NCBI GenBank assembly: GCA_003584705.1
Contig: AP018536.1
Span: 372,001-436,000, forward strand
Length of the DNA: 64,000 nucleotides
From: Lachnospiraceae bacterium GAM79
GTDB taxonomy: Bacteria; Bacillota; Clostridia; Lachnospirales; Lachnospiraceae
Direction: 5' to 3'
Positions 47,875 through 64,000 of the stretch are shown here, piece after piece (within the stretch, counting starts at the first letter, position 1; each line of letters starts with the position of its first letter). The notes below the pieces were generated by a model. That model was not told the origin of the DNA, did no database searches, and was given only the letters and a program-made list of their open reading frames with translations. The translations under genes were made by a program, and so were the position numbers.

Positions 47875-47892
47875 TTTTTCAGATGCAATTTG

Positions 47893-47948
47893 AGCCTGCA
47901 TAGTGTACGGAAGTACACGATACCTATGTGTCGGAAAGTTGGCAGGCT
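47893..47948. repeat. Nested hairpin between kinase and araD
   Basis: Outer arms AGCCTGC (47893-47899) and GCAGGCT (47942-47948) enclose GTGTAC-GGAA-GTACAC. No T-run follows, so it is a processing or stability element rather than a terminator. Confidence 0.5.
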
Positions 47949-47972
47949 GTGGAAAGGAATGAGATTTAGTAT

Positions 47973-48677
47973 ATGTTAGAGGAATTAAAACAGAAAGTAT
48001 ATGAAGCAAATATGGATCTGCCCCGGTATGGTCTGGTGACTTTCACCTGGGGAAATGTCAGCGCCATTGACAGAGAGAGTGGACTGTTCGTGATCAAACC
48101 AAGTGGTGTGGATTATGACAAGCTGACACCGGAGATGATGGTAGTCATGGATCTGAACGGCAATAAGGTGGAAGGGGATCTGAATCCCTCTTCCGACACT
48201 GCAACTCATCTGGAGTTGTACAAGGCGTTCCCGGAGATCGGCGGTATCGTGCATACCCATTCTTCCTATGCTACCAGTTGGGCACAAGCGGGAAGAGACA
48301 TTCCCTGCTACGGAACCACCCATGCAGATTATATCTACGGTCCGGTTCCCTGCGTGCGCTGCCTGACAAAGGAAGAAATCGAGGACGCTTACGAGGAAAA
48401 TACCGGACACTTGATTGTCAACGAGTTCAAACGTCTGGGCAAGGACCCGAAAGCAGTGCCTGCCGTTCTGTGCAAGAACCATGGGCCTTTTGCCTGGGGC
48501 AAGGATGCCAGAGAGGCTGTCCACAATGCCGTAGTATTGGAAGAAGTGGCCAAAATGGCATACCGTGCCGAGACCATCAACCCCAGAATTCAGCCGGCAC
48601 CGCAGGAGCTGCAGGATAAGCACTATAATCGCAAGCATGGAAAGAATGCATACTATGGCCAAACAGTTCAGAAATAG
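47973..48677 (+). CDS. araD: L-ribulose-5-phosphate 4-epimerase
   Basis: A 234-residue class II aldolase/epimerase. The zinc ligands are in [16 protein letters not shown] and [13 protein letters not shown], with a late His in [37 protein letters not shown] is the phosphate-binding start. It turns L-ribulose 5-phosphate into D-xylulose 5-phosphate, which transketolase, encoded next, uses. AAAGGAATGAG precedes the start. The stop codon lies inside the first of three hairpins in the following spacer. Confidence 0.94.
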
Positions 48678-48885
48678 AATTTGGCTTATAGTGCGAGGGT
48701 GCTTGCACACAGAGCACTATATGACAAATTCTATTAGCGGAGCGCACCTCCATGAAATGAATTTGTGAGTGGAACGAACAAATTTATGAATGGAGGTCTG
48801 AACTGTATGCTGGAATTTGCCACCGCAATATTTTACGGTAGAAGAGCAATTCTTTTACTAGACTAGCATTCGGAAGTATGCTAGT
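48675..48885. repeat. Three consecutive hairpins between araD and transketolase genes
   Basis: Hairpin 1 (48675-48733): TAGAATTTG / CAAATTCTA with inner TATAGTGC / GCACTATA. Hairpin 2 (about 48746-48800): ACCTCCAT / ATGGAGGT with inner AATTTGT / ACAAATT. Hairpin 3 (48862-48885): ACTAGCAT / ATGCTAGT. None has a terminator T-run. The 260-base gap contains no gene. Confidence 0.6.
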
Positions 48886-48937
48886 ATAACAACGTAAATC
48901 GCAACAGACAAGCCAATATGGCGGAATGGAGGAGACA

Positions 48938-49780
48938 ATGAAGAATTTAGAACTGCAAAAGCGTGCCAATGATGTCCGCAAGGGCATTGTGACCGCAGTT
49001 CATGGTGCGAAAGCGGGACATCCCGGTGGATCCCTGTCAGCCGCAGATATTTTTACATTTTTATATTTTGAGGAGATGAACATTGACCCGAAGAATCCCG
49101 ATATGGAGGAGCGTGACAGATTCGTACTGTCCAAGGGTCATACAGCTCCCGGACTCTATTCCGCACTGGCTTACAGAGGATATTTCCCGGTAGAGGATCT
49201 GCCTACCCTGCGTCACCTGGGCTCCTATCTGCAGGGTCATCCCTGCATCCATATCCCCGGCGTGGATATGTCTTCCGGATCCCTGGGACAGGGCATTTCC
49301 GCAGCAGTAGGTATGGCACTGGGTGCAAAGATGGAGAATCGTGATTTCCGTGTATACACACTGCTGGGTGACGGTGAGATCGAGGAAGGCCAGGTATGGG
49401 AGGCAGCCATGTTCGCAGGCTTCCGTAAGCTGGACAACCTCTGTGTTATGGTAGATAACAATAATCTGCAGATCGATGGACCTATCGACCAGGTATGCTC
49501 TCCTTATCCTATCGATAAGAAGTTCGAGGCATTCAATTTCCATGTGATCAATGCAGATGCTCATGATTTTGATGCGATCCGTGCAGCATTCAAGGAAGCA
49601 AGAGAGACCAAGGGCATGCCCACCTGTATCGTATTCCATAGCCTGAAGGGTAAGGGCGTTTCCTTCATGGAGAACAGTGTGGACTGGCACGGCAAGGCTC
49701 CCAACGATGAGGAGTATGCAGTGGCAATGGCAGACCTTGATAAGATCGAAAAAGAATTAGAGAAAGCAGGTGAGCAGTAA
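48938..49780 (+). CDS. Transketolase, N-terminal (TPP-binding) subunit
   Basis: A 280-residue protein equal to the first half of transketolase: GHPGGSLSAADI at the start, KGHTAPGLYSAL, and the thiamine-diphosphate motif GDGEIEEGQVWEA ending in VDNNNLQIDG. It needs the C-terminal subunit for activity. GGAGGAGAC lies before ATG 48938. The final TAATG makes a 1-base overlap with the next gene. Together they link pentose 5-phosphates to glycolysis. Confidence 0.94.
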   Translation: MKNLELQKRANDVRKGIVTAVHGAKAGHPGGSLSAADIFTFLYFEEMNIDPKNPDMEERDRFVLSKGHTAPGLYSALAYRGYFPVEDLPTLRHLGSYLQGHPCIHIPGVDMSSGSLGQGISAAVGMALGAKMENRDFRVYTLLGDGEIEEGQVWEAAMFAGFRKLDNLCVMVDNNNLQIDGPIDQVCSPYPIDKKFEAFNFHVINADAHDFDAIRAAFKEARETKGMPTCIVFHSLKGKGVSFMENSVDWHGKAPNDEEYAVAMADLDKIEKELEKAGEQ

Positions 49781-50724
49781 TGGCAGAGAATACCGTGAAA
49801 AAAATCGCAACCAGAGAAAGCTATGGTAACTCCCTGAAGGAGCTGGCAGAAGAATTCCCCAATCTGGTCGTATTGGATGCCGACCTGGCAGCAGCTACCA
49901 AGACCGGAATCTTCCGTAAGGCATATCCCGACCGCCACATCGACTGCGGTATCGCAGAGTCCAACATGATGGGTGTGGCTGCAGGACTGTCACTGGTAGG
50001 TAAGATTCCCTTCGTAAGCTCTTTTGCAATGTTCGCAGCAGGACGTGCTTTTGAACAGGTACGTAACTCTATCGGTTACCCTCATCTGAATGTCAAGATC
50101 GGTGCGACCCATGCAGGTATCACCGTAGGTGAGGACGGCGCTACCCACCAGTGTAACGAGGATATTGCTCTGATGCGTACCATTCCCGGCATGGTAGTAA
50201 TGTGCCCTTCCGATGATGTGGAAGCAAGAGCCGCTGTTCGTGCCGCTCTGGAATATGAAGGACCTGTATATATTCGTTTCGGACGTGCTGCAGTACCCGT
50301 GATCAATGATCATCCTGGTTATCATTTCGAGATCGGTAAGGGAACCGTAGTCCGTGAAGGTAAGGATGTCACCATCGTAGCCACTGGTATCTGCGTAGAT
50401 TCCGCTCTGGGTGCAGCAAAGATGCTGGAAGAGGAAGGCATCAGTGCAGAGGTTGTAAATATCTGTACCATCAAGCCTCTGGACGAGGAGATCATCATTA
50501 ACAGCGCCAAGAAGACCGGCAAGGTAGTGACCGTGGAAGAGCATTCCGTGATTGGTGGACTGGGAAGCGCTGTCTGCGACTGTCTGTGTGCAAATCATCC
50601 CGTGCCTGTGAAGAAGGTCGGCATGCAGGATGTCTTCGGTGAGTCCGGTTCCGCTGCTGCTCTGGTAGAGAAGTACGGTCTGGATGCCAAGGGCGTTTAC
50701 AAGTCTGTCAAAGAATTTCTGTAA
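49780..50724 (+). CDS. Transketolase, C-terminal subunit
   Basis: A 314-residue protein with the pyrimidine-binding domain (ATRESYGNSLKELAEEFPNLVVLDADL, AESNMMGVAAGLSLVGKIPFVSSFAMF) and the C-terminal transketolase domain (VTVEEHSVIGGLGSAV). Split transketolases of this kind are common in Firmicutes and archaea. Codon usage in the kinase, araD and both tkt genes resembles that of pheST, so high expression is likely under pentose growth. A terminator follows 22 bases after the stop. Confidence 0.94.
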   Translation: MAENTVKKIATRESYGNSLKELAEEFPNLVVLDADLAAATKTGIFRKAYPDRHIDCGIAESNMMGVAAGLSLVGKIPFVSSFAMFAAGRAFEQVRNSIGYPHLNVKIGATHAGITVGEDGATHQCNEDIALMRTIPGMVVMCPSDDVEARAAVRAALEYEGPVYIRFGRAAVPVINDHPGYHFEIGKGTVVREGKDVTIVATGICVDSALGAAKMLEEEGISAEVVNICTIKPLDEEIIINSAKKTGKVVTVEEHSVIGGLGSAVCDCLCANHPVPVKKVGMQDVFGESGSAAALVEKYGLDAKGVYKSVKEFL

Positions 50725-50745
50725 GAGAATATAAGATATCAAGAG

Positions 50746-50788
50746 GAAGCCGCCAGTTATGTGAAAACAGAGACTGGCGGCTTCTTTT
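50746..50788 (+). terminator. Terminator of the arabinose operon
   Basis: GAAGCCGCCAGT and ACTGGCGGCTTC, perfect 12-base arms with a 15-base loop, followed by TTTT. Confidence 0.93.
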
Positions 50789-50845
50789 AGGTCATGGTAT
50801 CATGAACTCGAAATAATAAATGAAAAAGAAGACAATATTGTAAAG

Positions 50846-50933
50846 AAGTCGATAATCAGGTAAAAGAAGTCGAAAATTAGGTATCAAAAGTCGATATTCA
50901 AGCGGAAGTTACACAAGAATATGATACTATATT
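50846..50933 (+). promoter_or_regulatory. Three phased direct repeats and promoter region of the kinase/regulator unit
   Basis: Three copies of a 15-base motif begin at 50846, 50867 and 50888, exactly 21 bases apart: AAGTCGATAATCAGG, AAGTCGAAAATTAGG, AAGTCGATATTCAAG. The phase equals two helical turns, so all copies face the same side. A -10-like sequence (TACTAT at 50925-50930 or TATATT at 50928-50933) follows 22-25 bases after the last repeat, without a good -35 box. The same motif stands before two other transcription units of the locus. Confidence 0.75.
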
Positions 50934-50996
50934 AGATAGAAATATATATACGGTGCTGGTGTCACAACGGTTGGTGCTCTTAAGAAAGGCGAAATC

Positions 50997-52622
50997 ATGT
51001 TAAGCAAAATGAAAAAATCTGTTGTAATTTGCATGAATAGTCTTATATCTGTAATTATTTTTTGCATGATAATAATGCTTTTATGTAGTTGCGTCAGTGC
51101 AGCTCGCACGACTTGGAAACAGGCAAAAAAGACTTATCATTCTATGGTGGAGTACTATACGCGCGATGTAGAAAATAATTTGAGCAATATTTCGAACTAT
51201 CTTCTTCGAATAAGCGAAACAGCGGATTATTATGGTATGACTAATTGCGAAGAGGATAAAGAATCTATGAACAATTTGTCAAGACAGCGGCTGTATAATC
51301 AATTGAATGAGGATATTCTTGTTTATAGTTCTGCGGATTACTTTTTTATATTTCAAGACAAATATGCAGATATCATGATGGTGGAATCTGCAAAAAAGAA
51401 AGCAAAAATACAAAGTCAGAATATCAGAGAACAGTTGAAAAGGTTATTGGAGAGTAGAGAACCTACAGAAAAATGGGAGCTGTTTGATGCAGAAGGTTAT
51501 CAATATTTAATCAGAGTTGTATCAAAGGATGGTGTGGGGATTGGCTGTGCAGTGAGCCTTAATCGACTGATTGAAACAATGCAAGCTGTACAACTAAGTG
51601 ATTATTATGTTTCTTACTATAAAATAGGCACAATGATTTTAGACAACGAGTCAGGGAAAGATCTAAAAATAGAACTGCCAATTCAAGAAACAGATGTGGG
51701 TGTAAGAATTGTAATTCCTTCAGAAAAGCTATTTGAAGAAATCAGAACGTTATTAAACTTCAGTATGGTTTTTGCTGTGATTTTGATCATACTGCTTTTT
51801 GCTCTTTATATTTCCATGTATCACTGGTTTACAAATCCGGTAAAAAGGATTGTATCAGTAATGCAAAAGGTGGATGAAGAAGGAATAGATCTTAAAATGC
51901 CGGAGTTTGACAACTGGGAAGAGTATCATATTGTCAGTAAAAACTTTAACAATATGATGGAAAAAATTAAAATTCTGAAAATTGATGTTTATGAGAAAGA
52001 AAAAAAGCAGTCTGAGCTGTATAAACAATATTTAATGCTTCAGATTAACCCTCATTTCTTTTTAAATGCTTTAAATACTATTTATATGTTGAATAAAAGA
52101 AAAGATAACAATCAGGTAAATATTCTTCTAACATATCTGATAAATTATTTTAAAAGTGTGTTTGCTCGTCAAGGAGAAATGGTTCCTCTGAAGGAGGAAA
52201 TCAATTTTATGTTAAACTATATGGCGATTCAAAAGTTTCGTTTTGCGGGTGCTATGCATCTTCAGTGTGAAATAGAGCCGGAAGCAGAAATCAGCATGGT
52301 GCCGGCTATGTGTGTATTAACTTTTGTGGAAAATGCAATCAAATATTCCACGGATTTCTCGAATGATTTGATGATTGTCGTTTCAGCCAAAGTAGAGGGA
52401 GACAATATAAAAATTGAAATTCAGGATAATGGAGAAGGAATTGAGGAGAACATTCTTAAAAAAATAAACCAAAATGAGAAAATTGTGAAAAACGATAGGG
52501 AGCATATTGGAATAAAAAATATAGTAGATAGAATGCACATGCATTATGGAGAGGCTGCCAGTGTCAAGGTTACAAATCGGGACAGTGGAGGAGTTAGCGT
52601 TGTCATAAATGTACCAAAATGA
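50997..52622 (+). CDS. YesM-type sensor histidine kinase
   Basis: A 541-residue membrane kinase: helix at residues 8-32, an outer sensor region of about 220 residues, a second helix at 255-277, HAMP linker, then the His_kinase domain with the phospho-acceptor His353 in LQINPHFFLNALNTI and an HATPase domain with N-box FVENAIKYS and G-box DNGEGIEEN. This LytS/YesM group pairs with AraC-type response regulators and usually controls neighbouring sugar uptake genes. AAAGG lies before ATG 50997; ATG 51009 is a possible alternative. The gene opens the AT-richer catabolic locus. Confidence 0.93.
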   Translation: MLSKMKKSVVICMNSLISVIIFCMIIMLLCSCVSAARTTWKQAKKTYHSMVEYYTRDVENNLSNISNYLLRISETADYYGMTNCEEDKESMNNLSRQRLYNQLNEDILVYSSADYFFIFQDKYADIMMVESAKKKAKIQSQNIREQLKRLLESREPTEKWELFDAEGYQYLIRVVSKDGVGIGCAVSLNRLIETMQAVQLSDYYVSYYKIGTMILDNESGKDLKIELPIQETDVGVRIVIPSEKLFEEIRTLLNFSMVFAVILIILLFALYISMYHWFTNPVKRIVSVMQKVDEEGIDLKMPEFDNWEEYHIVSKNFNNMMEKIKILKIDVYEKEKKQSELYKQYLMLQINPHFFLNALNTIYMLNKRKDNNQVNILLTYLINYFKSVFARQGEMVPLKEEINFMLNYMAIQKFRFAGAMHLQCEIEPEAEISMVPAMCVLTFVENAIKYSTDFSNDLMIVVSAKVEGDNIKIEIQDNGEGIEENILKKINQNEKIVKNDREHIGIKNIVDRMHMHYGEAASVKVTNRDSGGVSVVINVPK

Positions 52623-52676
52623 ACAAAAGGGAAACTATAAGATAACTAGAAAAAGATGTTGGAATGGAGATCAGCT

Positions 52677-54272
52677 ATGAACTTACTTATTGTAGATGAT
52701 GAATATCTGGTGGTAGAAGAAGTAGTTACAGTAACGGACTGGGGGATGCTGGGTATTACGGAGATTTATTCTGCTACAAATGCAGTTAGCGCTGTTCGAA
52801 TTTTAAATGAGAAAAAAATTGATATTATGATCTGCGATATTGAAATGCCTCAGACAGATGGATTGGAATTATCAAAAAAGGCAAAGGAAAATTTTCCGGA
52901 TTTAGAAATCGTCATGTTGACAAGCCATGCGGAGTTTATTTATGTCAGAACTGCCTTGCGATACGGATGTTATGATTATCTGCTTAAACCGGTCATGGAA
53001 GATGATATTATTAAGGTGATGAAAAATCTTGTCACTAAGATTGAAAGAGAGCGTCATCAGGCGCAGTTACAGGAAGAAGGAATTGTATGGAACCAGTTAA
53101 AACCAGTATGGAAAGAAAAATATTGGGAGGAAATGCTCAGAGGACTACGTGATGATCCGAACAGGGAGTGTGAAGAATATGAGGAGAAGCAATGGAAAGA
53201 GGAGCAAGATAGAAGGCTGATCCCAATTTTATTTTATCAATATGCAAATGACAAAGCAGAAGAAGACATAAAGCAGACCAGGAAGAAGGTAAAAGAGGAC
53301 TTGGGAACAGTGGCTGGTGACTTTCTGCTTCCGGTATTGTCTCAAAAAGAATTTGCAGGCCTGGTTTTTATTTCAGACGAGTGGCTGAGTTCTGGCACTG
53401 AAAGAAATGGCATAATATTAAAAGATGCGATATTACAGCAATTTAAGACAGAAAGATTATACGAAAAAATTGGAATATGCATAGGAGAAGTGTGTACAGG
53501 GAGAGAAGTACAGTCCATGGTAGATAAGCTTCGACAGTTTGCATGGAATAATGTTTGCAGTAGAAGACAGATTTTGGATATTATAAATATGCCTAAAAAC
53601 AGTGAAGCAATTGGTATGCCTGATATGACGCTATGGAAAGCATATATTGATAATGGCAAGACTGTGGAACTTCAAGATATAATCCGAAAATGGCTTTGGG
53701 GAAAAGACAATGAGGCAAAGTTAAATAGGAGAGCACTTCAAATGCTTCAGTATGATTTGGAACAGTTGTTCTATTCGACACTTCAGGAAAATGGAATTCA
53801 GGCACATCAATTTTTATATGATAGAGAAAATGGATGTAACAGAGTAACAGCAATTGGTTCACTGGAGGAAATGGATGCATGGATTGAGGAAACTATGGGA
53901 GCTGTTTCCAGGATCATGCAGGATGTATCGAACTTAAGTGGGATCAGGGAACAAACGATTTATTATATACAGACCCATCTCGATGAGGAACTGAATAGGA
54001 TAAAAGTTGCTTCAGCACTGTATTTAAATCCGGATTACCTGGATAGACGATTTAAAAAGGAAATGGGATGTTCGGTAAATCGCTATATTTTAAGGGAACA
54101 GGTAAATATGGCAAAAGGATTGCTGTTAAACCCAAAGATTTCCGTATGTGAGATTGCATCCCGGTGCGGCTATGAAAATATGTCTAATTTTTCTGCAATG
54201 TTTAAAAGAGAAGTAGGAATTTCACCAAATGAATATCGAAAAAACGGTGGGATGGAAAGACCTGATCTTTGA
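52677..54272 (+). CDS. YesN-type AraC family response regulator
   Basis: A 531-residue protein. Residues 1-120 are a receiver with VDDE, phospho-acceptor Asp54 in ICDIEMPQTDG and Lys104 in YLLKPV. A middle region of about 300 residues has no clear motif. The last 95 residues are two AraC helix-turn-helices (VASALYLNPDYLDRRFKKEMG; IASRCGYENMSNFSAMFKREVG). ATG 52677 follows GGAGATC. It surely is the partner of the kinase and the best candidate to bind the 15-base motif. The gene end overlaps its terminator. Confidence 0.93.
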   Translation: MNLLIVDDEYLVVEEVVTVTDWGMLGITEIYSATNAVSAVRILNEKKIDIMICDIEMPQTDGLELSKKAKENFPDLEIVMLTSHAEFIYVRTALRYGCYDYLLKPVMEDDIIKVMKNLVTKIERERHQAQLQEEGIVWNQLKPVWKEKYWEEMLRGLRDDPNRECEEYEEKQWKEEQDRRLIPILFYQYANDKAEEDIKQTRKKVKEDLGTVAGDFLLPVLSQKEFAGLVFISDEWLSSGTERNGIILKDAILQQFKTERLYEKIGICIGEVCTGREVQSMVDKLRQFAWNNVCSRRQILDIINMPKNSEAIGMPDMTLWKAYIDNGKTVELQDIIRKWLWGKDNEAKLNRRALQMLQYDLEQLFYSTLQENGIQAHQFLYDRENGCNRVTAIGSLEEMDAWIEETMGAVSRIMQDVSNLSGIREQTIYYIQTHLDEELNRIKVASALYLNPDYLDRRFKKEMGCSVNRYILREQVNMAKGLLLNPKISVCEIASRCGYENMSNFSAMFKREVGISPNEYRKNGGMERPDL

Positions 54273-54287
54273 GGATCAGGTCTTTTT
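54258..54287 (+). terminator. Terminator of the kinase/regulator unit
   Basis: AGACCTGATC and GATCAGGTCT with a 6-base loop, then TTTT. The 5' arm is part of the coding end of the response regulator. Confidence 0.9.
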
Positions 54288-54299
54288 GTATAAAAATCA

Positions 54300-54351
54300 T
54301 AAGTGAAGGTCGAGTTTCAAGTAGAGTCAGAACATAATAGCAGATTATACT
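54300..54351 (+). promoter_or_regulatory. Regulator site and promoter before the Asp-box genes
   Basis: The 15-base motif AGGTCGAGTTTCAAG is at 54307-54321, directly preceded by CATAAGTGA. TATACT (54346-54351) follows 24 bases later and would be the -10 box. There is no -35 box at the right distance, as expected for an activator-dependent promoter. Confidence 0.7.
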
Positions 54352-54398
54352 ATAGTTGATCCTAAATGAAAAGAATGATATGGAAAGGGAGGAACAAA

Positions 54399-55484
54399 AT
54401 GTTTGATTTTTTTTCAAAGGAAGATAAACAACTATATAATATGTTAGGACATCTGAATATGGCTGAAAAAGAAATAAGCTTAAAGGATAACAGTGAAACA
54501 GAGATATATGAAGTCGCCGGCCCGGATGATAAATATGCTTTTTTGCATGAAGCAGCTATTATAGAATATCATGGAACGCTATTTGCTGCCTGGTATAATT
54601 GCGAGGAAAAAGAACTGATCGGACCTACTCCAATCAGACAAAAAAGGTCAAAAGACGGTGGAAAGACATGGAGTGATATTGAAACGATAGCGGAGGATCA
54701 AACCGGCAAAATTTTGTTCTGCCCACCAGTGTACGGTATTTGCGAAGATAAACTATATATGCTTATTAATGAAATGGTATCAGCAGATCATATTCATGCT
54801 CTTGATCTTTATGTATTTCAAGAGGAAAAGGACTGTTTTGAATTTTTATGGTCCAAACCGATTCCTTTTAAGCTAAATACGAATGTGTATAAGATGGCAA
54901 ATGGGAAATTGCTTTTGCCGGGACGTATTGCTGAACTAGATGGCTTCCCGAATACTCCGGCGGTACTTATTTCGGATTCCGGGAAAATAGATGATGATTG
55001 GAGATTAGTATATATTCAGGAAAATGGAGACTTACCTGATGGTTCTAAGCTGGTACATCCGGAAATTACCGCAATCATAGAAGATAATAAAATTGCCATG
55101 TTTTCGAGAGATGACGAGCGAAAAGTTCCGCTTGTATATTTATCACAGGATTATGGCGAGACATGGTCGGATGCCTTTTCCTATGATATTCCTTTTTCAG
55201 ATTCAAAAATATATGCGGGCACGCTTTCTGATGGTAGAAATTATATAATAGGAAATTGGTATCCGGGAAGAGAAAAACTTGTACTCGCATTCTCCAAACC
55301 CAAAGAAAGTACCTTTGAGACAGGCATTATACTACAAAATGGCTTTTCCGACAGATTAGGTTATGGAAAAGCGTGGTGTTACCCATGCGCCTATGAAGCA
55401 GATCATAAATTATATATTATATATACTGTATATTTAGAAAATGAAAAAAGAGGGGCTGCATTGTCCGTTGTTCCGTTGATATAA
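54399..55484 (+). CDS. Cytoplasmic Asp-box beta-propeller protein (sialidase-like), copy A
   Basis: A 361-residue protein without signal peptide. It has Asp boxes SKDGGKTWSD and SQDYGETWSD and the overall strand pattern of the BNR/sialidase-like six-bladed propeller. The FRIP arginine motif of true sialidases is replaced by HEAAIIEYHGTLFAAW, so the substrate is unlikely to be sialic acid in the usual way. GGGAGG lies before ATG 54399. It stands after a site of the local regulator and is followed by a second, different propeller gene. A role in intracellular glycan cleavage is inferred only from context. Confidence 0.75.
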   Translation: MFDFFSKEDKQLYNMLGHLNMAEKEISLKDNSETEIYEVAGPDDKYAFLHEAAIIEYHGTLFAAWYNCEEKELIGPTPIRQKRSKDGGKTWSDIETIAEDQTGKILFCPPVYGICEDKLYMLINEMVSADHIHALDLYVFQEEKDCFEFLWSKPIPFKLNTNVYKMANGKLLLPGRIAELDGFPNTPAVLISDSGKIDDDWRLVYIQENGDLPDGSKLVHPEITAIIEDNKIAMFSRDDERKVPLVYLSQDYGETWSDAFSYDIPFSDSKIYAGTLSDGRNYIIGNWYPGREKLVLAFSKPKESTFETGIILQNGFSDRLGYGKAWCYPCAYEADHKLYIIYTVYLENEKRGAALSVVPLI

Positions 55485-55548
55485 CAGCTCCTGTATTTTT
55501 AAAGAAGATGCAGAAAACATGGATATAAGTCTGTTGGAGGAAACGATT

Positions 55549-56682
55549 ATGTTGTATACGGAAACAAAGGAATTACAAAAATACAGGGCTTCAAAACGCC
55601 TATGGCAAGGAATCCCAAGCATTGAGGTGACAAAACGAGGAAGGATTTTCCTTACTTTCTATTCAGGTGGAGTCAAGGAAGAAATAGGAAATTATGTGAT
55701 CGTAATTAAGTCGGATGACGGAGGGAATCATTTCTCGGAACCGATTGTTATTGTAAAAGAAGATAATGGAAGATGCTATGACCCATGCCTTTGGATAGAT
55801 TCATTGGGAGAACTTTGGCTGACATGGGCAAAGTGTCCGGACGATGGTTTATATGCATCTGTTTGCCGAGATCCTGATGCAGAGGAGCTGGTTTGGGGAG
55901 AAGAATTTCTGGTAGGCCATAATGTAATGATGAATAAACCTATAGTGGTGAAATCTGGTGAATGGTTGTTCCCGATTGCTGTATGGAATGATGGTATAAG
56001 AGTATTATCAGAAGAATATGATACTAAAATTACGGAAAAAGGCTCCTTTGTTTATGCTACCAATGATTGCGGGAAAACCTTTCAGAAGCTTGGCTTTGCA
56101 GACGTGAAAGACCGGCATTATGATGAACATATGATCTTGGAGATGAAGGATGGAAGCCTAAGAATGTTTGTTAGGACAAAGTATGGGATTGGCGCATCGA
56201 ATTCTTATGATGGAGGAAGAAGCTGGAGTAAAGATTTTGACACTGGCTATGGTGGTCCCTGTTCGAGATTCCATATTACAAGATTGCGTTCAGGTAGAAT
56301 CCTGCTGATCAATCATTTTAAGTTTAGTGGAAGAAATAATCTTACGGCAATGCTGTCAGAGGATGAAGGAAAAACGTTCCCTTATAAATTACTATTAGAC
56401 GAGAGAGAAGTTTCTTATCCGGATGCAAAGGAAGCAGATGATGGATTTATCTATGTAACATATGATCGGGAACGTGGAAGTTATCTATCCAATATGAAAG
56501 AGGTGATGGCTTCCGCCAGAGAAATTTTAATTGCCAAAATAACAGAAGAGGATATTATTAGCGGATCTCTTGCAAACACAAATAGTTATCTGAAAAGGAT
56601 CGCGAGTAAGCTGACGGATTATGATGGAGAGGACAAAGATCCATTTCATGAGCTGGATTTCGATAAAACAAAAAGCGTATAA
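55549..56682 (+). CDS. Cytoplasmic Asp-box beta-propeller protein (sialidase-like), copy B
   Basis: A 377-residue protein without signal peptide. Four Asp boxes are visible: SDDGGNHF, TNDCGKTF, SYDGGRSW and SEDEGKTF. Near the N-terminus GIPSIEVTKRGRIFLTFYSGG takes the place of the RIP motif of sialidases, but the first Arg is missing. GGAGG precedes ATG 55549. It is clearly diverged from copy A in sequence and in number of boxes, so the two probably do different steps. Other propeller hydrolases and lyases with Asp boxes are known; the substrate here is unknown. Confidence 0.75.
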   Translation: MLYTETKELQKYRASKRLWQGIPSIEVTKRGRIFLTFYSGGVKEEIGNYVIVIKSDDGGNHFSEPIVIVKEDNGRCYDPCLWIDSLGELWLTWAKCPDDGLYASVCRDPDAEELVWGEEFLVGHNVMMNKPIVVKSGEWLFPIAVWNDGIRVLSEEYDTKITEKGSFVYATNDCGKTFQKLGFADVKDRHYDEHMILEMKDGSLRMFVRTKYGIGASNSYDGGRSWSKDFDTGYGGPCSRFHITRLRSGRILLINHFKFSGRNNLTAMLSEDEGKTFPYKLLLDEREVSYPDAKEADDGFIYVTYDRERGSYLSNMKEVMASAREILIAKITEEDIISGSLANTNSYLKRIASKLTDYDGEDKDPFHELDFDKTKSV

Positions 56683-56688
56683 AATTCA

Positions 56689-56739
56689 TAAGTGAAGGTC
56701 GAAATTCAGGGAGAAAGAAATAATTATAAGAGATATAGT
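56689..56739 (+). promoter_or_regulatory. Regulator site and promoter before the ABC importer genes
   Basis: The 15-base motif AGGTCGAAATTCAGG is at 56696-56710, preceded by CATAAGTGA as at 54300. TATAGT (56734-56739) lies 23 bases after it; a good -35 box is lacking. The spacing agrees to within one base with the site before the Asp-box genes. Confidence 0.7.
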
Positions 56740-56787
56740 TTAATTACAAAAGATACAAAACATACATAAAAGGAAGGAGAAAATGAT

Positions 56788-58323
56788 ATGAAAAAGAAAA
56801 TTGTAAGTAAAGTATTTGCCTTATTGTTGGCAGCATGTACAGTGCTTTCCGCATGTGGAAATGAAAGCGGTAATCAGAGCGTAGGTCAGACAGACAAAAG
56901 TGAAACGAATGACACTGTGCAGGAAGGAGAGGAACCATATACCATTGTTTATGCATTTGATGTATGGGTACAGCAGGCAGATTGGGATTTGGTAGAGGAG
57001 AATCTAAGCAACATTGTTTATGACAAGATTGGTGCCAAGGTTAAGCTTTTGCCTATGACAGGAGCAAACTATCAGCAGGAGGTTAATCTGATGATTACCA
57101 GTGGCGAAAAGCTGGATCTGGTAAATGCATCAGCCAGAACTACATTCAGTAGTGATGTCACTTCCAATAAACTGCTTGGGCTGGATGAAGAAACGGTTCG
57201 TAAATATGCACCGGATGCAATGGAAGTAATCGGCGACTATATGGAAGCTACCACAGTTGACGGAAAAATATATGGATTTCCGACCATACGTGATATGGCA
57301 AGTGCATACGGACTGATTCTTCGCAATGATATTATCGAGAAATATGGAATTGATGCTGATGCAGGATTAACAGTAGAACAATTAGATGACCTTTTTGCCA
57401 GAATTAAAGAGGGAGAACCGGACAAGTATGTAACGCAGCCGCAAAGCCAGGGAACCAGCATTCTGGAAAGCCTTTTTAAAACATATGATGGGCTGGGTGA
57501 TACCATGGGAGTCCTGATGGATTGGGGACAGGGCGATCTGACCGTGCAAAATCTCTTTGATACAGAATATTACGAGGAGTGTGTGAGGAAAGCCAGAGAG
57601 TGGAATGAGAAGGGCTATATTCTTCCAGATGCTTCAACGAATCCTGATACAGGAGTAGCTTATTTCAAAACAGGAAAAGTGGCATCCACAATGTCCCTGA
57701 TTCATCCGGGTGTGCCTACAGACAGCACCAATATGACAGGTATTCCATGCAGTACAGCAATTGTAAATCCGGCTTTTGGAAATACACAAACGGTTGGAGC
57801 TGTTATTCAGTCGATCCCTGTCAGCTGTAAGAATCCTGAAAAAGTGTTGGAGTTTGTCAATCTGCTTTATAGTGATGCAGAAGTATATAATGCGTTGGTA
57901 TGGGGTATTGAAGGTACACACTATCAGCATGTAAAAGGAAGCGAAAAGTGGATTACTTATCCGGACGGTGTAACTGGAGAAACATCCGGCTATACTCTGA
58001 GTGCAACTTACGCTTTTGGAAATCGTTATCTGAGTTATATTTGGAATACGGATCCCGAAGATTTAAATGAAAAATATGAGGAATTTAATGATAATGCAAT
58101 CAAATCTAAAGCGCTGGGATTTGTGTTTGACACCACTCCTGTGAAGGCAGAAGCGGCGGCTGTACAGGCAGTAATGGATGAGTATCGTCTGCCTCTGGAG
58201 AATGGAGTAATCGATCCTGATGAAAATTTACCGAAATTCCGACAGGCACTGAAGGATGCAGGGATTGATACTGTTATTGCAGAAAAGCAGCGGCAGTTAG
58301 ACGAGTGGGCGGCAACAAAATAA
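56788..58323 (+). CDS. Sugar ABC transporter substrate-binding lipoprotein (LplA type)
   Basis: A 511-residue lipoprotein with signal MKKKIVSKVFALLLAACTVLSAC and lipobox cysteine 23, followed by a Ser/Asn/Gln-rich linker and a two-lobed family 1-type binding domain (VIGDYMEATTVDGKIYGFPTIRDMASAYGL is the usual hinge pattern). The long type fits LplA/YtcQ-like binders of di- or oligosaccharides. AGGAAGGAGA precedes ATG 56788. No ATPase gene is in the window, so the importer must borrow a shared MsmK-like ATPase. Confidence 0.92.
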   Translation: MKKKIVSKVFALLLAACTVLSACGNESGNQSVGQTDKSETNDTVQEGEEPYTIVYAFDVWVQQADWDLVEENLSNIVYDKIGAKVKLLPMTGANYQQEVNLMITSGEKLDLVNASARTTFSSDVTSNKLLGLDEETVRKYAPDAMEVIGDYMEATTVDGKIYGFPTIRDMASAYGLILRNDIIEKYGIDADAGLTVEQLDDLFARIKEGEPDKYVTQPQSQGTSILESLFKTYDGLGDTMGVLMDWGQGDLTVQNLFDTEYYEECVRKAREWNEKGYILPDASTNPDTGVAYFKTGKVASTMSLIHPGVPTDSTNMTGIPCSTAIVNPAFGNTQTVGAVIQSIPVSCKNPEKVLEFVNLLYSDAEVYNALVWGIEGTHYQHVKGSEKWITYPDGVTGETSGYTLSATYAFGNRYLSYIWNTDPEDLNEKYEEFNDNAIKSKALGFVFDTTPVKAEAAAVQAVMDEYRLPLENGVIDPDENLPKFRQALKDAGIDTVIAEKQRQLDEWAATK

Positions 58324-58337
58324 GTAAAGTTTCTCGG

Positions 58338-58370
58338 AAAGGTCAGAGGTATAACACAACTGACCTTTCT
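58338..58370 (+). other. Stem-loop between binding protein and permease genes
   Basis: AAAGGTCAG and CTGACCTTT with a 13-base loop, followed by CTATT only. Such stems protect the binding-protein message and reduce read-through, so that the lipoprotein is made in excess over the permeases. Confidence 0.7.
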
Positions 58371-58387
58371 ATTCAAAGGAGCCTGGT

Positions 58388-59305
58388 ATGTATAAAAGAT
58401 TAAAAAAAATAAAAAAGCTTTTGCCACTATACATTATGGCTTTGCCGGCATTGGTTTATTTGTTTATTAACAATTATTTACCACTAACGGGTATGGTGGT
58501 AGCTTTTAAAGATTTCGACTACAGCAAAGGAATTTATGGAAGTGATTGGGCAGGCTTTAGAAATTTTTTGTTTTTATTTAAAAACTCAGTTGCTTTTATT
58601 ATTACCAGAAACACAATATTGTACAATGTGGCATTTATTATAATTAATACATTTTTAGGTATTTTAGTAGCAATTCTTTTGAGCGAAGTGACAAGCAAAA
58701 AGGCTTTAAAAGTATATCAGACAGTGATTCTTTTGCCATATTTGTTTTCTATCGTCATTATCAGTTATCTGGTATTTGCTTTCTTAAGTACGGATGTAGG
58801 CTTTATTAATAAAGGGATCCTGGAGCCCTTGGGAAAAAGCACGATATCCTGGTACAATGAGTCAAAGTACTGGCCTATAATATTACCGATCGTAAATACA
58901 TGGAAGTCATTTGGATTTCAGGCAACTATTTATTATGCCAATGTTATTTCTATTGATAAGTCTTACTATGAAGCGGCTCAACTGGATGGGGCATCAAAGC
59001 TTCAACAGGTACGGTATATCACACTGGTATTGTTGAAACCGGTTATTATAATGATGATATTATTGGCGGTAGGAAAGATTTTTTATTCTGATTTTGGTTT
59101 ATTTTATCAGGTTACGCAGAACTCAGGAGCAATATACAGTACTACAAATACAATAGATACCTATGTGTACCGCACATTGATACAGACAGGAGACGTGGGT
59201 ATGTCTGCAGCAGCAGGAGTATATCAGTCAGTAGTCGGCTTTTTAATTGTTTTAATTACAAATTTGTTACTTCGGAAGATCAGCCCGGAAGATTCTCTGT
59301 TTTAG
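58388..59305 (+). CDS. Sugar ABC transporter permease (LplB type)
   Basis: A 305-residue membrane protein with six transmembrane segments and the EAA loop YYEAAQLDGASKLQQVRYITL that contacts the ATPase. The start MYKRLKKIKKLLPLYIMALPALVYLFINNYLPLTGMVVAFKDF is typical of LplB-type permeases. AAAGGAG precedes ATG 58388. It forms the channel with the next gene product, which begins 10 bases after its stop. Confidence 0.93.
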   Translation: MYKRLKKIKKLLPLYIMALPALVYLFINNYLPLTGMVVAFKDFDYSKGIYGSDWAGFRNFLFLFKNSVAFIITRNTILYNVAFIIINTFLGILVAILLSEVTSKKALKVYQTVILLPYLFSIVIISYLVFAFLSTDVGFINKGILEPLGKSTISWYNESKYWPIILPIVNTWKSFGFQATIYYANVISIDKSYYEAAQLDGASKLQQVRYITLVLLKPVIIMMILLAVGKIFYSDFGLFYQVTQNSGAIYSTTNTIDTYVYRTLIQTGDVGMSAAAGVYQSVVGFLIVLITNLLLRKISPEDSLF

Positions 59306-59315
59306 GAGGTGTGAG

Positions 59316-60212
59316 ATGAAACGAATGAAAGTAAACAAATCAGCATTAGTAGCACATATAGTTTTAATTTGTTTCGTGCTTTTCTGTACTCTTCCTACGT
59401 TGTTGCTGGTAACGTCTTCTCTGTCGGATAATGATAGTGTGTTCCGAAATGGTTATTCCTTTTGGCCCAAAGAGTGGAGTCTGGGAGCATATCGCTATAT
59501 GGCAACGCAGGGGCAGACAATATTCCGTGCATACGGGATTTCAATACTAACTACATTTATAGGTACGATTTCCGGATTGATGCTTACAGCCATGCTGGGA
59601 TATACACTTTCGCGTAATGAATTACCCGGAAGAAAGATAATCAATTTTCTCGTGTTTTTTACATTGCTTTTTAACGGAGGTATGGTTCCCACCTATTTAT
59701 TATATGTAAATACGTTACATGTCAAAAATACTATATTTGCATTACTTTTGCCAAATAATATTTTGGTAAATGGTTTCAATGTTCTGCTGGTGAGAACATA
59801 CTTTAATAACAATACGCCTAAGGAATTGATCGAATCAGCTATGGTAGATGGCGCTAAGGAGTTCCGAATTTTCTTTAGTATTATTATGCCGATTTCGAAA
59901 CCCATCCTGGCTACGGTAGGATTGTTGATTGGTATTGGTTATTGGAATGACTGGTATAATGGTCTCCTTTATCTTACGAATACAAAATTATTCAGTCTGC
60001 AAAATTATTTGAATAGAATTTTGCTGGATATTCAGTTTATGACACAAAGTATGGCAGGAAGCGCAGAGGCTGCCAATGCCTTGGGTAAAATGCCTACCAT
60101 CACGGTTCGTATGGCAATTGCAGTAATCGGTATTTTACCTCTTATGATGATATTTCCGTTTTTCCAGTCCTATTTTGCAAGAGGTATGACAGTTGGAGCA
60201 GTGAAAGGCTGA
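59316..60212 (+). CDS. Sugar ABC transporter permease (LplC type)
   Basis: A 298-residue membrane protein with six transmembrane segments, the EAA motif ELIESAMVDGAKEFRIFFSIIMPISKP, and the C-terminal QSYFARGMTVGAVKG tail of carbohydrate permeases. TAGGAGGTG precedes ATG 59316. Together with the LplB-type subunit and the lipoprotein it makes up the importer of the locus. Confidence 0.93.
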   Translation: MKRMKVNKSALVAHIVLICFVLFCTLPTLLLVTSSLSDNDSVFRNGYSFWPKEWSLGAYRYMATQGQTIFRAYGISILTTFIGTISGLMLTAMLGYTLSRNELPGRKIINFLVFFTLLFNGGMVPTYLLYVNTLHVKNTIFALLLPNNILVNGFNVLLVRTYFNNNTPKELIESAMVDGAKEFRIFFSIIMPISKPILATVGLLIGIGYWNDWYNGLLYLTNTKLFSLQNYLNRILLDIQFMTQSMAGSAEAANALGKMPTITVRMAIAVIGILPLMMIFPFFQSYFARGMTVGAVKG

Positions 60213-60238
60213 GAAGTGTTTTAAAAGGAGAGCGAAGG

Positions 60239-61207
60239 ATGAATATTGTAAATTATAAAGGAACAAATTTGCGAGTGTCAGATATAGCGTTGGGAGGTGG
60301 AGTGCTCGGGAGCCGTATTTCCGACCAGGCATCATTCGATATCCTCGATTGTTTTGTAGGAAATGGGGGTACATTTATTGATACAGCGAATGTGTATGGA
60401 AGGTGGAATCCAGGAAATCTTCCACTATCTGAATTATTGATTGGAAGATGGATGAAACAGCATAGATTGAGAAGCAAGCTGGTAGTTGCGACCAAAGGAG
60501 CCTGCCATGCACTTGAAACACCGAGCATAAAAAGGCTGGCGCCGGAAGAGATACGAGAGGATCTGGAGAGCAGTTTGAAAAGCTTACAGACTGATTATAT
60601 AGATTTATACTATTTACATGCAGATGATCCGAAGCGTGAGGTTGGTGAAATTATTGAAACTTTGAACAGCTTTGTCAGAGAAGGAAAGGTGAGATATTTT
60701 GCTTGTTCGAACTGGTCGGCAGAAAGAATGTGGGCTGCAGATGCTTACGCGAAAGAGCATAATTTGAAATCCTTTGTTGGGCATGAAATTATGTTTAATT
60801 TGGCAAAACCGAATGACGAGGCAGTGGAGGCAGCTGTACAGACCCATATGACAGAGAACATATATGAATATCACCAAAAAACCGGTAAACCGGTAACTGC
60901 ATATACTTCTCAGGCAGCAGGATTTTTTGTATTACATAAGGAAGAGGGATTTCTCAAGGACGATAAATTTGCTTTCCCCAGAGATATGTTTTATAATGCG
61001 GAATCCTTAAAAAGAGCGGAGAGAGTAGACGAACTATGCAAGCTCACGAATGCCACTCCATTGGAAATAACATTAGCATATCTTTATGCGCAGCCTTTTC
61101 AGGTTATTCCGATCGTAGGACCTTGCAGGGTTAAGGAACTGGAAGAGAGCCTTCGTGCATCAGAAAAGAGATTAACGCAAGAGGAAGTAGAGTTTTTGTT
61201 TTCATAA
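60239..61207 (+). CDS. Aldo/keto reductase
   Basis: A 322-residue TIM-barrel oxidoreductase with the full catalytic tetrad: Asp48 and Tyr53 (FIDTANVYG), Lys86 (VVATKGAC) and His127 (DLYYLHADDP). The C-terminal VIPIVGPCRVKELEESLRASE holds the NADP-binding residues. It starts 26 bases after the permease gene with AAAGGAGAG upstream. In this setting it could oxidise or reduce the imported sugar; the neighbours favour oxidation to a lactone that the two propeller lactonases open. Confidence 0.9.
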   Translation: MNIVNYKGTNLRVSDIALGGGVLGSRISDQASFDILDCFVGNGGTFIDTANVYGRWNPGNLPLSELLIGRWMKQHRLRSKLVVATKGACHALETPSIKRLAPEEIREDLESSLKSLQTDYIDLYYLHADDPKREVGEIIETLNSFVREGKVRYFACSNWSAERMWAADAYAKEHNLKSFVGHEIMFNLAKPNDEAVEAAVQTHMTENIYEYHQKTGKPVTAYTSQAAGFFVLHKEEGFLKDDKFAFPRDMFYNAESLKRAERVDELCKLTNATPLEITLAYLYAQPFQVIPIVGPCRVKELEESLRASEKRLTQEEVEFLFS

Positions 61208-61225
61208 TGGAGAGAGCTGACTTAA

Positions 61226-62260
61226 ATGACATTCTATTTTTGCAATACATTTGGAAACACATCGACAGATGGGATATATCGTATTGACCTGGGGAGAAAT
61301 GACAGCAGGGAAACTTTGGCTGCACCACTGAAAAATCTGGAATGGGCGTGTATTGCGCCCAACGGAATACTGTATGCGGTAGGACAGGAAGAATCAGGGG
61401 GAAGTTATATTCAGTCGTTTTATTTGAAGCAACTTACAGGAGAACTGTTTTTTTTGGAGAAAAGCTGTTTCCCTTGGAGAGGGATCAGCCATATGAGCTT
61501 TTGGGAGCAGGGAAAGGCTCTTTTGATTGCTGTGTATGGAGAACAAATGGTTGTATCAGTGGACGTAGCGGAGGGGCGCATCGGCAAAGAATCTGGAAGG
61601 GTGATTTTCAAAGGAAATGGTCCGGTAGTTAGCAGGCAGGAAGCGTCTCATCCGCATTTTGTAAAGTGGATGCAGGAGGAGTGCTGGATTGCCGATCTGG
61701 GCGCGGATGCAGTATATCATAGTAGTGAGAGCCAACTTTGGGGAAACCGGGACAACTGGAGAATAGAGCAACAGCCCCGGGGATCAGGTCCAAGATTTCT
61801 GGAGATACATCCATTAGGAAAAATCGTATACCTCGTTACAGAATTATCGAATGAATTGATCGTGTTGGAGAAAAATTCAGACGGAGGTTTGAAAGAAAAG
61901 CAGCGTGTCAGTTTGCTCCCTGCCGGAGCACGAAAAAGTCTTTCTTCAATTTTGTGTCCAGATTGGACAAAAGGAAGATTGTTCGTAGGAGTACGGGGAG
62001 CTAATCTGATCCGGGAATTGGTCGTTGAGCAAAACGGAATGATCCGGGAAGGGAGAATTTTGCAAACACTGGGATGGCCCAGGAGCTTTCTGTATCTGAA
62101 ACAGCTGGATTGTTTGCTGATTGCTGATGAAGAATTTGCGGAATCAACCGGAAGACTGGAGCTTTTTGATCTATGTGAGGGAAAACGTTTATGGGAAAAA
62201 AGAATGCCAAGAGCTTATCAAATTTACAACGGAGAGTACAATGACGAAACTGAAAGGTAA
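61226..62260 (+). CDS. Lactonase-family beta-propeller protein, copy A (diverged)
   Basis: A 344-residue protein with repeated blade strands and the family phrase GSGPRFLEIHPLGKIVYLVTELSNELIVLE, which is equivalent to the GPR-H-x-x-FHPNGKYAYVVNEL segment of YbhE-type 6-phosphogluconolactonases. The N-terminus is FYFCNTFGNTSTDGIYRI in place of the usual YVGTYT..GIY. HPHFVKWMQEECWIADLGADAVY keeps the active-site His/Asp pattern. It is much diverged from its neighbour copy B. It has no signal peptide. Confidence 0.8.
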   Translation: MTFYFCNTFGNTSTDGIYRIDLGRNDSRETLAAPLKNLEWACIAPNGILYAVGQEESGGSYIQSFYLKQLTGELFFLEKSCFPWRGISHMSFWEQGKALLIAVYGEQMVVSVDVAEGRIGKESGRVIFKGNGPVVSRQEASHPHFVKWMQEECWIADLGADAVYHSSESQLWGNRDNWRIEQQPRGSGPRFLEIHPLGKIVYLVTELSNELIVLEKNSDGGLKEKQRVSLLPAGARKSLSSILCPDWTKGRLFVGVRGANLIRELVVEQNGMIREGRILQTLGWPRSFLYLKQLDCLLIADEEFAESTGRLELFDLCEGKRLWEKRMPRAYQIYNGEYNDETER

Positions 62261-63314
62261 AGATATGGAGAAATGGATGAAGTGTTACGTAGGAACGAAC
62301 TCCTTGAGAGGATCGAAAGGTATTTACACATTGGAGATAAATACTCAAAATGGGGAAATGAGGGAAGTTTCAACAGTAGAGGCTGACGATTCTGCATATT
62401 TATATGTTTCGGAAAAGAGAAAATGTCTGTATGCGGTTATGGAATCACTGGAATATAAAGGTGTACCGGGTGGAGGTGTTGCTGCTTATCGCATAGAGGA
62501 TAATAAACTTTCATTTTTAAATAGCAGATATGCTTATGGTGGCTGGCCATGTCATGTTATAGCGGATGAGGAAAAAGATAGTCTTTTAGTATCTGTTTTT
62601 CGTAATGGATTGCTGGTGGTGTACGGCATTAATCAGGATGGAAGCATTGGGGAGGAAAGACGAGTAGAGCATCACCAGGAACCAAATGGAAGGATGTCTC
62701 ATATTCATGCATCCATGCCTACACCGGATGGAAAATATATTGCGGTTGCGGATTGTGGTCTTGATTATATATATCTTTATGATGCAAAAACGTATCAAAA
62801 AGTTTTCGAGTGGAAAGCACCGGAAGACAGTGGACCCAGACAACTCCGTTTCAGTCCGGATGGAAAATATCTATATATGGTATCTGAATTGAGCTGTCAA
62901 ATTTTTGTGTTTGAGTATCAGCCGGATTGCAAAGATATGTTACGGAATGTCCAGGTAATATCGACGAGACGTGAGGATGGTTATGACCGGGAGAACTATA
63001 CTTCGGCACTACAGATGCATCCATCCGGTAGATATCTTTTGGCTGGGAACAGAGGGCACAATTCAATTGTTGTCTATGAGGTAGATAAGGAAACCGGTTT
63101 GTTGATGTTGAAAGGACATACAATGTTGGCAGGTGATTTCTGCCGGGAGTTTTGTTTTGTACCAGATGGCTCTATGCTGATAGTGGGTATTCAGCATACA
63201 GATGTGGTACAGACCTTTTTCTTTGATGAAAATAAAGGGATTTTAAAGTGGAGCGGACAGGAAATTGTAATTCCCTCTCCTTCCTGTGTTATAATGGGCG
63301 ACTCTGCAAAGTAA
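62241..63314 (+). CDS. Lactonase-family beta-propeller protein, copy B
   Basis: A 357-residue protein of the seven-bladed lactonase family: CYVGTNSLRGSKGIYTLEI at the start, HIHASMPTPDGKYIAVADCGLDYIYLY, GPRQLRFSPDGKYLYMVSEL and the late HPSGRYLLAGNRGHNSIVVYEVD are family motifs. ATG 62241 has GGAGAG 4-9 bases upstream and overlaps copy A by 20 bases; ATG 62265, just after the copy A stop, is nearly as good. It would hydrolyse a sugar (phospho)lactone in the cytoplasm. Confidence 0.85.
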   Translation: MTKLKGKDMEKWMKCYVGTNSLRGSKGIYTLEINTQNGEMREVSTVEADDSAYLYVSEKRKCLYAVMESLEYKGVPGGGVAAYRIEDNKLSFLNSRYAYGGWPCHVIADEEKDSLLVSVFRNGLLVVYGINQDGSIGEERRVEHHQEPNGRMSHIHASMPTPDGKYIAVADCGLDYIYLYDAKTYQKVFEWKAPEDSGPRQLRFSPDGKYLYMVSELSCQIFVFEYQPDCKDMLRNVQVISTRREDGYDRENYTSALQMHPSGRYLLAGNRGHNSIVVYEVDKETGLLMLKGHTMLAGDFCREFCFVPDGSMLIVGIQHTDVVQTFFFDENKGILKWSGQEIVIPSPSCVIMGDSAK

Positions 63315-63391
63315 TGTTGGCAGCGGTTAGAGATGCATTTGTAAGAACGTATAATTTGCGAGCTTATATATTTACTATATGAAGGTGTTGT

Positions 63392-64000
63392 ATGCTTTTA
63401 CTCCAAAAAATGATAATGTTTTTCTTGATTATGCTCATCGGATATATCTGTCGGAAAATCGGTGTGTTTAAAGATACTACAGGCAAAACAATTTCAAGTA
63501 TAGTAATCAATATTGGAAATCCTGCGCTGATTATTGCCTCTGGTATGAATCCTGAGAGACTGGAGAATAAAGGAAAATTGTTGTTTACTCTGGGTGTTGC
63601 GCTGATCTATTTTGCAATTATGTTTGCTGTCGCGGAACTATTGCCCAGATTGCTTCATGCAGACAGAGAGGACTACGGCGCTTATCAGGTCATGACGCTT
63701 TTTTCCAATATTGGATTTATGGGTTATCCCTTGCTGGATGTCATGTATGGCAGCAATGCAATAATTCACGCTGTAATCTTCAACTTGTTATATAATGTCT
63801 TGATCTATACTTATGGCATCCACAAAATGCAGATTGGTGGTTGTCAGAAAAATATAAATTGGAAACAACTCGTGAATATAGGCGTAGGCTCTTGCATTAT
63901 TGCGATAGTTCTGTATATCACCAATCTTCCGGTCCCATTGATCCTTGAAGATACAGCAACTTTCACTGGTGCCATCACAGGTCCGTTAAGCATGTTGGTC
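63392..64000 (+). CDS. AEC family transporter, N-terminal part (runs off the window)
   Basis: From ATG 63392, with AAGGTG 5 bases upstream, the frame stays open for 203 codons to the window edge. It reads MLLLQKMIMFFLIMLIGYICRKIGVFKD, then SSIVINIGNPALIIAS, MTLFSNIGFMGYPLLDVMYG and ending GPLSMLV, the first half of an AEC/auxin-efflux-type carrier and related to the one at 37229-38176. It could export an acid product of the lactonase steps, or import substrate. It follows the lactonase gene by 77 bases without a clear terminator. Confidence 0.85.
   Translation, partial: MLLLQKMIMFFLIMLIGYICRKIGVFKDTTGKTISSIVINIGNPALIIASGMNPERLENKGKLLFTLGVALIYFAIMFAVAELLPRLLHADREDYGAYQVMTLFSNIGFMGYPLLDVMYGSNAIIHAVIFNLLYNVLIYTYGIHKMQIGGCQKNINWKQLVNIGVGSCIIAIVLYITNLPVPLILEDTATFTGAITGPLSMLV

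Follow-up and report, generated by a model that had tools for sequence, protein, structure and literature searches.

Loci that combine an LplABC-type importer with a YesMN-type two-component system are common, and sialidases carry an arginine before an IP motif. The locus described here is best compared with the GH33 sialidases, the PF10282 lactonases, the De Ley-Doudoroff (galactonate) pathway and an importer of Streptococcus pneumoniae whose lipoprotein, NgtS, binds Man5GlcNAc as part of an N-glycan importer, as described in PMC5215778. We analysed a locus of Lachnospiraceae bacterium GAM79 at the end of the window, namely the 64,000-nucleotide stretch covering bases 372001-436000 of a single-contig genome of 4.08 Mb. 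It encodes a two-component system, two sialidase-like propellers (hereafter BNR1 and BNR2), an importer, an aldo/keto reductase (AKR), two lactonases and an AEC-type carrier. Our favoured reading, to which we give a probability of roughly 0.42, is a foreign, self-regulated catabolic regulon in which the propellers would act as intracellular glycosidases and the AKR and lactonases would yield an aldonate.

In this scheme, the two-component system would sense a sugar compound outside the cell and, via a common operator, induce its own genes, those of the two propellers and the operon of importer and enzymes. The importer would take up an oligosaccharide or glycoside, and BNR1 and BNR2, as intracellular sialidase-fold glycosidases that are not sialidases, would act on a carboxylated or otherwise polar sugar. 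The AKR and the two lactonases would oxidise a released aldose to an aldonate, the AEC carrier would move an organic acid, and the aldonate or a 2-keto-3-deoxy acid would enter the KdgK/KdgA-like route of the genome.

All the genes named in the first-pass annotation were found, on the forward strand and in the order claimed, with family matches by Pfam. The features are as follows:

50847..50902, + strand: three operator-like boxes before the kinase gene (starts 50847, 50868 and 50889), matching RGTCGANWWTCARG with 0, 1 and 0 mismatches
50997..52622, + strand: YesM-like sensor histidine kinase (PF06580, PF02518)
52656..54272, + strand: YesN-like response regulator with AraC-type output domain (PF00072, PF12833)
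54252..54289, + strand: terminator-like hairpin where the regulator gene ends (-22.1 kcal/mol, z -6.2)
54308..54321, + strand: operator-like box before BNR1, matching RGTCGANWWTCARG
54366..55484, + strand: BNR1, sialidase-fold propeller (PF13088)
55519..56682, + strand: BNR2, second propeller and BNR1 relative (PF13088; homology to BNR1; alignment to sialidases)
56697..56710, + strand: operator-like box before the lipoprotein gene, matching RGTCGANWWTCARG
56788..58323, + strand: NgtS-like solute-binding lipoprotein (SBP_bac_1, DUF3502)
58388..59305, + strand: LplB/AlgM1-like permease
59316..60212, + strand: LplC-like permease (PF00528)
60239..61207, + strand: AKR (PF00248)
61226..62260, + strand: lactonase 1, divergent 7-bladed propeller (PF10282, 118 bits)
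62265..63314 (start approximate), + strand: lactonase 2, typical 7-bladed propeller (PF10282, 261 bits)
63392..64000 and 306 bases more past the window, + strand: AEC-type carrier (PF03547)

The two-component system is of the YesMN type, pairing a His_kinase/HATPase sensor with a response regulator that bears an AraC helix-turn-helix (HTH) domain. For lactonase 2, the listed TTG start at 62121 overlaps lactonase 1, and the ATG at 62265 suits the family alignment; the carrier gene ends beyond the window edge, at G000:C1:436306.

The island is probably one self-contained regulon, as suggested by a 14-base repeat, RGTCGANWWTCARG, present in five copies, four of them exact, at three intergenic places. 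The boxes upstream of the kinase gene follow a 21-base period, and the start that the first-pass annotation had chosen for the locus, 50846, falls one base 5' of the first of them. No further match with at most one mismatch occurs within 50700-64000. Shuffled sequences gave 1.04 expected copies versus five observed, and 0 of 100 shuffles reached five, in a test that is partly circular because the pattern was derived from these very sites. Exact matches in the whole genome number five, four in the island and one inside a permease-like open frame, and matches at one mismatch (52 and 33) are not commoner than those of a reversed control (79 and 81); a wider regulon was therefore rejected and no member outside the island was found. 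Besides the hairpin ending the regulator gene, a strong one lies 3' of the upstream transketolase-like gene (z -8.6), and the interval separating BNR2 from the lipoprotein gene (56660-56700) has no predicted stable hairpin. In the simplest reading, three promoters would answer to a single regulator, for which the response regulator of the locus is the likeliest candidate. The earlier claim of a coherent gene set for uptake and breakdown is thus supported by the same repeats standing ahead of three transcription units.

The locus is an AT-rich accessory island. The AT-richness reported earlier holds, with 38.6% G+C at 50997-63314 versus 47.6% at 1-50723; island genes range from 33 to 45%, and four measured upstream genes from 50 to 52%. 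AT-rich stretches also occur elsewhere in the window, whose first 2 kb have 36.5% G+C. A DNA search of 60 further genus genomes, of which many are incomplete, did not find the island; 11 of the 60 gave short matches only (at most 161 bases among the matches listed). The radical SAM gene downstream is present in 32 of 61 genus genomes, a count that includes the source genome. BNR1 was found in two of 199 further family genomes (55% and 34% identity), a lactonase 1 relative in two of 290 other class genomes (E 1e-20), and the AKR in 20 of 396 other family genomes at E 1e-50, with 37% as best identity. The island was probably acquired horizontally. Directly upstream (46288-50724) stands a pentose-like unit of normal G+C, with an FGGY-type kinase, an AraD-like epimerase and a transketolase split in two genes, all named by reading the sequence.

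The structure model of BNR1 has the sialidase propeller fold typical of GH33, in a comparison that covered BNR1 alone and whose match list was filled by sialidases. BNR1 and BNR2 are homologous as distant relatives, and the earlier description of the propellers as cytoplasmic agrees with the fact that no signal peptide was seen on reading either protein. By alignment, a Tyr, two arginines and a Glu appear to be kept at the sialidase catalytic places in both, the Tyr/Glu pair of BNR1 being loosely placed: arginines R219/R248 and R272/R302 align with sialidase places, Y300 and E203 of BNR2 align with 7lbu, and Y339 of BNR1 aligns with Y300 of BNR2. In sialidases, the Tyr at this place is the nucleophile and the Glu its partner.

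Judging from the alignments, neither propeller seems to have the first arginine of the sialidase triad. The residue before IP in BNR2 is G31, placed by a 1.4-bit alignment and kept in 25 of 27 free forms (two gaps) and 93 of 93 long forms; its BNR1 counterpart, L60, was placed by hand and lies opposite a gap in hhalign. The apparent loss speaks against sialic acid catabolism with the propellers as intracellular sialidases, a very improbable explanation despite the modelled fold of BNR1. In addition, no sialate gene was recognised in the locus, and the kinase and aldolase families linked to BNR2 (see below) are those of six-carbon sugar acids, although one BNR1-like protein lies beside a gene of the DHDPS family, which also holds NanA. 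In that stretch (L093:1418-3408), the BNR1-like gene overlaps the end of the DHDPS-family (PF00701) gene and a permease relative follows; in another (L007:3437-7361), a BNR1 gene lies directly 3' of two alpha-L-fucosidase (PF01120) genes.

At E 0.001, BNR1 had 551 matches and BNR2 2411, the weakest of which may not belong to the families. Of 47 BNR1 loci, 45 yielded a BNR1 open frame and 27 came from records naming a herbivore host in the title. Some proteins of both families are called 'exo-alpha-sialidase' by their sources, a name that is probably wrong for them and that testing the two soluble propellers would correct; such work could also reveal an overlooked gut glycan or sugar acid.

Many relatives of the propellers are longer proteins. 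Among the best 120 relatives of each, lists in which near-identical variants and the proteins of the window itself are also counted, 32 BNR1 and 93 BNR2 relatives have at least 500 residues, and 31 and 88 of these, respectively, carry an AraC HTH label. The AraC module sits at the N end of the BNR1 relatives and at the C end of the BNR2 relatives, and the modules of the two families are homologous (E 1.4e-37). A single protein of 930 residues (L008:8291-11083) has the order BNR2-AraC HTH-BNR1, and in L015 a BNR2-AraC gene precedes an AraC-BNR1 gene; because of this fusion and this tandem, the adjacent BNR1 and BNR2 of the window seem to belong together naturally. At E 1e-40, where wider BNR_2 relatives also pass, 29 of 46 BNR1 genomes gave a BNR2-type match versus 19 of 341 class genomes, with up to 30 versus four candidates scored per genome and with differing habitats; the stricter count at E 1e-150 was 17 of 46 versus 7 of 341, source genome included, one genome being present in both sets with identical place and score. 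Three apparent fusions, P0152 (BNR2 joined to DGOK, the 2-keto-3-deoxygalactonate or KDGal kinase), P0003 and P0125, resemble deletion chimeras and were set aside. The open-licence literature held nothing relevant by title on a propeller-AraC or propeller-lactonase combination.

Owing to the AraC fusions, a second explanation is a serious possibility: the propellers would be ligand sensors, as they would be within the one-component AraC regulators of the relatives. An intracellular sugar acid would bind to the free pair, which would thereby tune the regulon or the response regulator, and the AKR and lactonases alone would do the chemistry. The 930-residue protein and the homology of the two AraC modules suit such a role, as do several AraC-BNR1 genes that adjoin housekeeping-like genes (two neighbours per side, among those listed). 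The aligned catalytic places are nonetheless equally conserved in long and free forms, and a pure sensor leaves unexplained the two proteins in which BNR2 is fused to a PF01081 aldolase. The AraC-BNR1 genes of L011 (polA-like neighbour), L017 and L018 (argG-like) have no catabolic gene among their two neighbours on each side.

These aldolase fusions, P0132 and P0162, belong to a wider set of sugar-acid genes in the surroundings of propeller relatives, which were read in 83 stretches centred on propeller hits; these total 1.25 Mb, and some overlap or share a genome. In L078, a PF01081 aldolase and DGOK come after BNR2, which adjoins a DGOK-aldolase fusion in L179 and is accompanied in L171 by LplBC-type permeases, a KDG-kinase-like PfkB and, beyond the kinase, a PF01081 aldolase. 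A galactonate-dehydratase-like gene, below curated cut-offs, lies 1.4 kb from BNR2 in L084, with two genes between. The L078 and L179 aldolases fit KDPGal- and KDPG-aldolase models with scores below curated cut-offs. Relatives of the PF01081 aldolase occur in 5 of the 83 stretches, three being counted as linked; those of L173 and L181, which are separated from BNR2 by three genes and by one unrelated gene, respectively, and are of a longer type above the Eda cut-off, were not. Window-type permeases occur in three stretches. The position of BNR2 relatives beside DGOK and KDPG-type aldolases, or fused to an aldolase, hence points to a sugar-acid pathway. A genome-wide search for PF01081 found one gene elsewhere in the source genome, and a KduI/KduD/KdgA/KdgK-like cluster at 2.69 Mb, read from sequence except for PF01081, could accept 2-keto-3-deoxy acids.

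A bolder version, which we consider improbable, is that BNR1 and BNR2 form an unrecognised sialidase-fold branch of enzymes hydrolysing glycosides of a 3-deoxy-hex-2-ulosonic acid (KDG or KDGal), whose product would go to KDGal kinase and a KDPG-type aldolase, with the AraC-fused forms as enzyme-regulators sensing their own substrate. This would explain a sialidase fold tied to that kinase and that aldolase, and if true, the hydrolysis of KDG or KDGal glycosides would be the six-carbon analogue of the sialidase reaction.

The importer is of the LplABC (CUT1) type, LplABC as proposed earlier, with a lipoprotein and two BPD permeases; no ATPase gene was seen in the locus. An oligosaccharide cargo is favoured because NgtS (SP_0092; E 9e-38) is a relative of the lipoprotein and AlgM1 (E 6e-48) one of the first permease, neither relationship naming the cargo. 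The same genome has a second LplABC-YesMN locus at 932-939 kb (L105; G000:C1:930900-942000), in a stretch of 40% G+C with an IS66 transposase (PF03050) 5' of the locus and a carboxylesterase (PF00135) and a GH3-like gene 3' of it.

The AKR belongs to PF00248, and its residues D48, Y53, K86 and H127, which we take to be the catalytic Asp-Tyr-Lys-His tetrad, are invariant in 19 aligned sequences; relatives at 54-74% identity exist. Both lactonases belong to PF10282 as annotated, but at 24% identity over 285 columns 'paralogues' is a loose word for them, as it is for the distantly related propellers. The AKR clade (E 1e-80) is present in one of 46 genomes with BNR1 and three of seven with BNR2, versus 20 of 391 class genomes, source included. 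A single close AKR relative was found in 390 other class genomes (G241; E 5e-133, the next being 2.3e-93). Its locus, L244, from another family of the same class, encodes an SDR, a PF10282 lactonase, a lipoprotein, two permeases, the AKR, a BNR_2 protein (opposite strand, 45.5 bits versus a 31.4 cut-off), a kinase and a regulator. An AKR, a lactonase, an importer and some sialidase-like propeller have thus been joined at least twice, with a differing propeller.

Another lactonase of G241 and the relative of this lactonase in G448 lie about 4 kb or less from LplBC-type permeases. In G241, a PF10282 lactonase, a glycerate kinase (PF02595) and LplABC-type genes are consecutive (L246:11016-17757), and a gene of the enolase superfamily (PF13378) lies some 10 kb upstream of the row. 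Neighbours of the wider AKR clade, in 19 regions read without family search, are mostly unrelated; one AKR adjoins a BNR_2 gene in G211 (L255), and permease relatives lie a few kilobases from the AKR in L251 and L261, the latter also having a PF01081-like gene 8 kb away. The oxidative, lactone-forming route proposed in the first-pass annotation is a plausible hypothesis in which the AKR would oxidise a sugar to a lactone; in its favour stand the sugar-acid link through BNR2 relatives and the gene set of L244.

Several observations weigh against our favoured reading. Apart from the apparent loss of the first arginine and the housekeeping-like neighbours of AraC-BNR1 genes, unusual company for a catabolic enzyme, E233 of BNR1 lies opposite a gap in the profile alignment, one place off, and E54 pairs with the sialidase Asp solely in a 1.4-bit alignment. 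No KDGal kinase, aldolase or dehydratase was recognised in 46288-64000 or downstream, by reading and, for part, by Pfam, and at E 1e-5 the BNR_2 protein of L244 matches neither BNR1 nor BNR2. The co-occurrence check suggested earlier went against the expectation, with a lactonase relative in none of the 83 propeller stretches and an AKR in two, one of them weak; that propellers, AKR and lactonases travel together is weakly supported. The missing lactonases, like the second LplABC-YesMN locus of this genome, would suit an ordinary gut glycan-foraging locus of known type (LplABC plus YesMN) whose enzymes came together fortuitously in an AT-rich island, the propellers acting on other substrates than the AKR and lactonases. 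We regard this as unlikely, given the operator-like repeats common to three units and the occurrence of the same family set in another bacterial family (L244).

Compared with GH33 sialidases (NanA, NanI, NanB), BNR1 and BNR2 apparently lack the first arginine and have a Glu close to where the acid/base Asp would stand; they also differ by the absence of a signal peptide, by their AraC fusions and by their link to six-carbon sugar-acid genes. Like NgtS-NgtP1-NgtP2 (SP_0090-SP_0092), the importer consists of one lipoprotein and two permeases, whereas no endoglycosidase or mannosidase gene was recognised in the locus. Among PF10282 lactonases (6-phosphogluconolactonase-like, PpgL), lactonase 2 matches 4qrj (E 4e-37) and PpgL 6igb (E 3e-28), but the operon holds two unlike copies, lactonase 1 being divergent and rare. 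L244 shares an AKR, a PF10282 lactonase, an ABC importer, a BNR_2 protein and a two-component system within about 11 kb; it differs by another propeller subfamily on the opposite strand, an extra SDR dehydrogenase, a single lactonase and no AEC relative found in the stretch. Finally, with respect to the De Ley-Doudoroff pathway, the locus has an AKR instead of a known galactose dehydrogenase, and the dehydratase, kinase and aldolase were not recognised; yet it shares the predicted lactonase step, with two PF10282 genes, and the BNR2 relatives neighbour DGOK, the PF01081 aldolase and, once, a galactonate-dehydratase-like enzyme (below cut-offs).

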